A stretch of DNA of 64,000 bases from contig NZ_CP036349.1 of assembly GCF_007753265.1 (NCBI RefSeq), forward strand, positions 1,273,363 through 1,337,362. The letters run 5' to 3'. The translations under genes and the position numbers were made by a program. Below, piece by piece: positions 17,737 through 18,225 of the stretch. Every line of letters starts with the position of its first letter. The stretch's first letter is position 1. Origin of the DNA: Botrimarina mediterranea (GTDB taxonomy: Bacteria > Planctomycetota > Planctomycetia > Pirellulales > Lacipirellulaceae). The notes beneath the pieces were generated by a model that worked only from the letters and a program-made list of their open reading frames with translations, had not been told where the DNA came from and searched no databases.

Positions 17737-18225
17737 CCCCCCCAAGAGGACCTGTAAGCCGGGTCTTGTCTCCAATGTCTTGCGACATTGGCGGCGACCA
17801 TTCATCTAGGACGGCGGTTGCCCGCCGCCTCGAGCGGCCCACCCGGGAGTGGTAGCGAGCCGGACAAGCTCATCCTCCCTGTTTGGCCTTGCGTCGGGTG
17901 GGGTTTACCAAGCCGAGCGAGTCACCCCGCCCGCTGGTGCGCTCTTACCGCACCGTTTCACCCTTGCCTGTGGGGAGAAGCGGTTAGCGATTAGTCGATA
18001 GTGGTTAGCTAAAGGATCGTCGGCGATGCCGACAGCTAACGACTAACTGCTAACCGCTAACCGCTTCCCCCCCATCGGCGGTCTACTCTCTGTTGCACTT
18101 TCCCTGGCCTTGCGGCCGGTGGGCGTTACCCACCACCCTGTCCTGTGACGCCCGGACTTTCCTCCCGCTTTGGCCTGCCGAGTTAACGGAGTCCAGAGCC
18201 GGCGGTCGCCCGGTCCTCTTGGGGG
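17737..18225 (-). ncRNA. rnpB: RNase P RNA, bacterial class A
   Basis: On the minus strand the molecule begins with CCCCCAAGAGGACC, which pairs with GGTCCTCTTGGGGG at its 3' end (helix P1). It contains the universal GGAGGAAAGTCCGGGC block near 18155-18170, the GGTAAGAGCGCACC block near 17943-17956, and CAAGACCCGGCTTAC at the 3' end. A run of six T residues follows on that strand and probably terminates it. It is the catalytic subunit that matures tRNA 5' ends. It is about 490 bases long because a 91-base hairpin sits in the P12 position. Confidence 0.95.
17976..18066. repeat. Word-repeat hairpin D5 inside RNase P RNA helix P12
   Basis: The left arm (GCGGTTAGCGATTAGTCG, GTGGTTAGC) and right arm (GCTAACGACTAACTGC, TAACCGCTAACCGC) are complementary. 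They enclose a small GTCGGC-GAT-GCCGAC tip. It lies exactly between the conserved GACCGCCGATGG and CAGGCAAGGGTGAAA parts of the RNA, which is P12 by comparison with E. coli. The insert is therefore transcribed and probably folds as a long extension. Confidence 0.9.

Follow-up and report, generated by a model that had tools for sequence, protein, structure and literature searches.

A heptamer-word hairpin extends helix P12 of the RNase P RNA

The window (the whole stretch of 64,000 nucleotides analysed here) carries a complete gene for the RNase P RNA, rnpB, on its minus strand at positions 17739-18221, with an annotated length of 483 nt. The gene matches Rfam model RF00010 with 292 bits (curated score 100; E 1.9e-94) over model positions 1-367 of 367, and this full-length covariance-model match above the curated score places it among the bacterial type A RNAs. 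In the Rfam alignment the extra bases of the gene lie in the helix that follows the ACAGA block, which we take to be P12, between the blocks GACCGCCGATGG and CAGGCAAGGGTGAAA.

The extension is a hairpin of GGTTAGC-type words at 17976-18066, which like all of its parts is in minus-strand orientation. In RNA sense, its 5' arm (18034-18066; GCGGTTAGC GGTTAGC AGTTAGT CGTTAGC) contains about four heptads, corresponding to 4.3 units, while the 3' arm (17976-18010; GCTAACC...CTAATCGCTAACCGCTTC in RNA sense) is recognised from sequence and fold, only 2.3 of its units passing the period test. Between them, the apical part (18011-18033) folds into a small GTCGGC/GCCGAC stem. The hairpin rests on a conserved base of P12, placed by the Rfam alignment, whose 5' strand GCCGATGG (18072-18079) is also found in some members of the window's family, Lacipirellulaceae (hereafter f1), and whose 3' strand CACAGGCAAGG (17963-17973) was further located by comparison with f1 members. 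Hairpin and P12 base together (17965-18078, 114 nt) fold with -69.4 kcal/mol, as opposed to -33.2 +/- 3.3 in a set of 200 dinucleotide shuffles, none of which folds as well (z -10.9), and the pairing reaches a few bases past 17976-18066 at either end. The lag-7 identity of the P12 field is 0.52, a value equalled by none of 300 shuffles, and 7 is the best lag. The 91-base GGTTAGC-type hairpin that the initial annotation had placed within P12 of rnpB, with no mention of the strand, is thus borne out by alignment, fold and period.

Related elements form a pool within the genome

We searched the P12 hairpin against 43 f1 genomes, scoring up to 21 candidates per genome and all candidates in the three congeners (G001, G002 and G003). 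The genome to which the window belongs (G000) gave 15 matches, two of which are rnpB itself and 13 of which fall on nine other places; at six of these nine the match extends over at least 70 of the 91 positions. Partial matches, between one and five per genome and none longer than 41 bases, turned up in nine of the other 42 f1 genomes among the up to 21 candidates scored, and none of the three congeners had a match among all of their candidates. This is the opposite of a P12 common to relatives with its words nowhere else, which the initial annotation had named as the sign of ordinary P12 variation.

Seven hand-picked elements from G000 align with P12 over its full length, and they follow a common plan, in which AGC and about four GGTTAGC words lead to a variable loop that is followed by their mirror image. 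The 64-kb window holds 13 lag-7 runs compared with two in one Markov control, and tandem GTTAGC occurs 29 times in G000 compared with three times for the reversed pattern. The proposal that the P12 hairpin has the same design as other elements of the region is upheld by these runs and alignments. The GTTAGC elements of G000 share the ends AGC...GCT, and both words and ends differ between species. Directly beside rnpB, an intergenic hairpin of GTGGGC/GTCGGC words with P12-like design (17636-17730) was recognised from its sequence and lag-7 runs, and the corresponding site in G001 contains, by eye, other heptamer words of GGATTGC type. A hairpin of GGAATGC words is located at a gene edge (23655-23753), and at the same place G001 again has words of GGATTGC type.

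Between G000 and G001, the word in P12 and the word prevailing in the genome differ together. Tandems of GTTAGC and GTCAGC number 29 and 8 in G000, and 3 and 19 in G001 (Fisher p 1.7e-6, on counts that overlap within arrays); counted by separate places, the numbers are 19 and 6, and 2 and 13, respectively (p 2.0e-4), and the P12 words of G001 are GTCAGC. Across f1 the association of P12 word and genome word has p values of 0.005 for GTTAGC, 0.06 for GTTGGC, 0.25 for GTCGGC and 0.27 for GTCAGC, and we rejected such a match as a general law, since GTTAGC alone among the four words reaches significance. G022 and G041 have GTCAGC words in P12 with no GTCAGC excess in the genome, which counts against the reading favoured below.

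Long P12 helices across the family

Of the rnpB copies found in a search of 97 genomes, those that could be read comprise 38 from f1, in which 36 of the 43 genomes are represented, and 45 from the order's other families. No rnpB was matched in six f1 genomes, the rnpB found in G073, G081 and G095 lies outside the counts, and the P12 counts leave out G041, G043, G049, G059, G066 and G074. Taking a P12 field of at least 70 nt as long, 22 of the 38 f1 copies are long and 16 are short, and the best lag is exactly 7 in 20 of the 22 long ones, the exceptions being G009 (lag 9) and G026b (lag 8). Outside f1 a long P12 was found in one of 45 copies (G084) and, beyond that count, in G059. Among the copies left out, G041 (77-nt region) and G059 (143-nt region) contain repeat words by eye, and G049, G066 and G074 are short. 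The P12 words vary by species and include GTTAGC, GTCAGC, GTCGGC, GTTGGC, GTTAGG, GGCTAG, GTAGGC and others; in the congeners G002 and G003 the P12 fields are 59 and 53 nt long and lack the words.

The distribution of long P12s in f1 requires 12 changes on a tree of rnpB cores from which G026b is excluded, and shuffled labels require 12.6 on average, with 228 of 500 shuffles as low. The presence of a long P12 therefore shows no clustering on this tree, which is weakly resolved, its starred branches forcing only 3 changes. G021 and G032 (L047 and L033) have identical P12s on cores that are 91% alike, and the identity spans 330 upstream bases and stops abruptly within a conserved stretch. We rejected horizontal transfer of P12 between these two genomes, the most likely cause being a chimeric contig in a metagenome-assembled genome, and they are best taken as one case, bearing in mind that the lag-7, word-match and tree figures used both. 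G026 and G039 have two rnpBs each and are likely mixed bins.

A scan of the phylum gave an rnpB match in 358 of 392 genomes, and the 483 nt of the window are the longest among the best 150 or so places listed; RNA length was set aside as a phylum-wide screen, length alone being a proxy. As for other structured RNAs, the tmRNA is 358-382 nt long in the 34 of 40 f1 genomes over the cut-off, with no jump in length. In these genomes it therefore has no insert of the size of the P12 hairpin, and an insertion into tmRNA was rejected on lengths.

An empty site in three closely related genomes

Three genomes of one genus (g2), different from that of the window, show the P12 site with and without a hairpin. 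The rnpB cores of G017, G028 and G024 are 97.0-98.1% identical and align free of gaps, while their P12 fields measure 130, 24 and 24 nt, respectively, and the alignment sets a short P12 tip against a whole hairpin with continuous flanks. The comparison of relatives for presence or absence of the hairpin, which the initial annotation had suggested, thus yielded an empty site in this trio in addition to the lack of a match to the window's P12 in all three congeners. The trio alone fits both gain and loss of the hairpin, and the direction of the change is something that we infer.

Other places in these genomes vary as well. The G017 heptamer hairpins at 93786-93882 and 95675-95786 (positions in a joined stretch) have no counterpart at the orthologous positions of G028 and G024, a G028 hairpin at 71338-71411 is missing in G017, with other sequence at the site in G024, and further heptamer hairpins are common to G017 and G028 and absent from G024. 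A few lag-7 runs of the trio fall in well-aligned coding-like sequence and probably reflect chance. Conserved ends and a target-site duplication would mark a MITE or another transposase-moved element; inspection by eye of the junctions at rnpB and at a few further empty sites, not all of which align well, revealed no such duplication.

Number of units per arm

The lengths of the period-7 segments peak at about 4.5 units in G000. In 244 kb of G000 there are 30 such segments, 14 of them in the 4.5-unit bin; 389 kb of the trio contain 39, of which 29 have 3.5-4.5 units, and 220 kb of the congeners contain nine, three of them at 4.5 units. Control periods of 5, 10 and 11 gave 3, 6 and 1 segments in G000. 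Period 8 gave 28 segments in the same 244 kb, partly belonging to a second word class and not all of them words, and was rejected as a control because this octamer class exists. The 29 arms detected in 20 P12s comprise 15 with at least 4.3 units, four with 3.3-3.4 and ten with 2.1-2.6; as the detector requires about two and a half units, short arrays are undercounted.

Heptamer repeats in cyanobacteria and other bacteria

A pattern scan gave at least 119 loci. The first 80 listed contain 59 with cyanobacterial titles, and the remaining 39 listed contain 28, of which 25 were readable, so that three of 87 cyanobacterial loci are left out. We took a P12 field of at least 75 nt as long and sorted the loci into heterocystous, other and unicellular by the name in the title. 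Among the first-listed 59, a long P12 is present in five of the six heterocystous titles, in 13 of the 20 others, which are mostly filamentous, and in none of the 33 unicellular ones, and lag 7 is the best in 17 of these 18, all except Calothrix NIES-4105. Among those listed later, seven of 25 are long and all seven are best at lag 7, which brings the total among the loci listed to 25 long P12s in 84, with 24 of the 25 best at lag 7. A rule that excludes unicellular cyanobacteria was dropped in view of the heptamer P12s of L193 (titled Aphanothece) and L224 (titled Xenococcaceae); both names refer to unicellular or colonial groups.

To our knowledge, heptamer repeats in rnpB had been ascribed to heterocyst formers only. 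The initial annotation had likewise referred to short tandemly repeated repetitive (STRR) heptamers in rnpB of heterocyst-forming cyanobacteria; they are present there, but they are not confined to that group, as the other titles of the first sample demonstrate, and the heptamer P12s in non-heterocyst titles widen the earlier statement. Loci of this type are L140, L147, L150, L152, L155, L158, L176, L180, L185, L192, L194, L204, L211, L212, L216, L217 and L241, together with L193 and L224. The cyanobacterial STRR repeats reportedly lengthen P12 and are said to have invaded independently.

The window and its relatives show tandem units of seven bases, a location in P12, dispersal in the genome, and relatives with different repeats or none. 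Since period, place, dispersal and turnover agree, we assign the hairpin to the STRR-in-rnpB kind. It resembles the cyanobacterial loci tested in having period 7, a hairpin, helix P12 and words that differ between strains, and differs from them in phylum and words, the kind now being found in Lacipirellulaceae and in non-heterocyst titles too. The same script finds heptamer P12s in cyanobacteria, so that both phyla, distant as they are, have this kind of repeat in P12. To this extent the suggestion that the same repeat class has entered the same helix of the same RNA in a distant phylum holds; as regards entry, presence and absence are observed, and we infer only the direction.

Dispersed heptamers are also on record elsewhere, and the following comparisons refer to the accessible parts of the sources. 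The majority of heptamer repeats in Xanthomonas have four units, with 70-75 facing pairs per genome, and an overrepresentation of heptamers has been linked to polymerase slippage (PMC4692102). The repeats of Xanthomonas and Nostoc described there share with ours the heptamer unit and, in Xanthomonas, the four-unit majority, but differ in their G-rich words and, in Nostoc, in having few facing pairs; no rnpB case was seen in the accessible parts of that source. The TAACTGA repeats of Beggiatoaceae, for which an RNA role was proposed, are likewise dispersed heptamer arrays and mostly intergenic, but consist of a single word in direct arrays (PMC4679880), and the main text of that paper never uses the term RNase P. 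In Geobacter metallireducens, elements of four tandem heptanucleotides occur in 49 copies within and between genes, and another Geobacter family has five heptamer units (PMC2700814); the former are similar to ours in unit number and different in forming direct arrays of another word. A literature search conducted mostly without full texts found no prior mention of rnpB heptamer hairpins in planctomycetes.

Origin of the P12 hairpin

The hairpin is periodic and paired, it has a pool of related elements specific to its genome, and such hairpins are present or absent between close relatives in which the rest of rnpB is intact. We consider it probable (at roughly 70%) that it is a tolerated passenger, derived from a dispersed family of inverted elements made of heptamer words and residing at the distal end of P12. 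Each arm of such an element would often comprise about four heptads, with a short unique loop between the arms. The P12 tip may have received, or been replaced by, a copy drawn from the pool of the genome, after which selection would ask only for a mostly paired insert, and its words would drift in step with the words of the genome at large. The P12 tip points away from the RNase P core, and the insert would survive because of this orientation and because a self-closing hairpin would keep the two P12 strands together. We favour a passenger origin because it accounts for the genome's pool as well as for empty sites and turnover. Evidence for it comes from the word difference between G000 and G001, the lag-7 P12s, the trio, the 12 compared with 12.6 changes on the tree, pair changes on both sides of the stem (below) and the tmRNA lengths. 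The lack of a visible duplication, the uneven word match, the weak tree and word changes made in place in both arms count against it.

The main rival is growth in place, in which a native P12 stem-loop would have been expanded by strand slippage and hairpin-templated copying. These would create heptamers and maintain the match of the two arms, so that the likeness among elements would reflect a shared mutational process. We regard it as rather unlikely, but it explains why two arms change jointly while the element stays where it is. Two orthologous elements of G000 and G001 (23655-23753 and, by eye, 17636-17730) have kept their place with other words in both arms, in comparisons such as G008/G020 the two arms of P12 have changed in concert, and slippage is the process to which the heptamer excess has been tied in the accessible part of PMC4692102. 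On the other hand, nothing in the minimal P12 of G028 and G024, with the tip GCGCAAGC, is recognisable as a seed from which the GGTCAGC words of G017 could have grown, other elements resemble the window's hairpin over nearly its full length only in its own genome, and the segment lengths of G000 peak at about 4.5 units, whereas simple slippage would produce a fall-off.

A function of the hairpin in the stability, localisation or regulation of RNase P appears improbable. It would agree with the strong pairing and with at least two pair changes on both sides of the stem in three of six P12 comparisons (six in G008/G020, six in G000/G001 and two in G019/G042); the remaining comparisons have one (G014/G026a) or none (G023/G027 and G017/G001), which also counts against a passenger origin, and broken pairs number 0-7 per comparison. 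However, P12 is short in 16 of 38 f1 copies and in two members of the tight trio, there is no conserved sequence and no phylogenetic signal on the weak tree, and removal of the cyanobacterial rnpB repeats is said to leave in vitro activity intact. It seems that rnpB requires a mostly closed P12 hairpin of no particular sequence. Ordinary variation in P12 length unconnected with repeats is very improbable, for although P12 length reportedly varies among planctomycetes and G009 has a long P12 with no heptamers, period 7 is best in 20 of the 22 long copies and the pool is genome-specific.

More tentatively, a dedicated and so far undescribed machinery in Lacipirellulaceae and many cyanobacteria, perhaps also in Xanthomonas and Geobacter, might write inverted hairpins with a preferred size of about four heptads per arm and species-specific turnover of words, P12 being its recurrent landing site in an essential RNA; we see this as speculative and rather unlikely. 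If it were true, P12 could act as a natural recorder of the activity of this machinery.

The phenomenon itself is known from cyanobacteria; its occurrence in this phylum and its scale are new, as are the empty-site trio and an arm size close to four heptads. What had been a curiosity of a single phylum thereby becomes a recurrent event, which in two distant phyla affects one and the same helix of an essential ribozyme. The trio, with P12s of 130, 24 and 24 nt, makes the origin of such repeats directly testable, because rnpB is easily amplified from many strains and the site can be aligned.

Other repeat elements of the window

A heptamer pair at 24690-24798 is located inside coding sequence, within the 539-aa frame of an FtsX/MacB-type permease (23757-25376, minus strand), where it is translated into KSEVGSDQKLEVGSGKSEA and NPQSAV; the congener G001 has a shorter version of this pair. 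Based on naive reading frames, five of nine GTTAGC elements examined (L004, L006, L007, L008 and L108; elements near 1433-1594) span the gap from a stop to the next start between co-oriented frames, to within about ten bases on each side. Hairpins of octamer words, with about three units and words such as CGCAAAGG and ACAAAGGA, occur in the window at 34635-34775, 38368-38458 and 48139-48301, and also at L126, L252 and L253. Two copies of the Acido-Lenti-1 RNA, both over the Rfam cut-off, are encoded in opposite orientation at 12336-12381 (minus strand) and 12489-12534 (plus strand).
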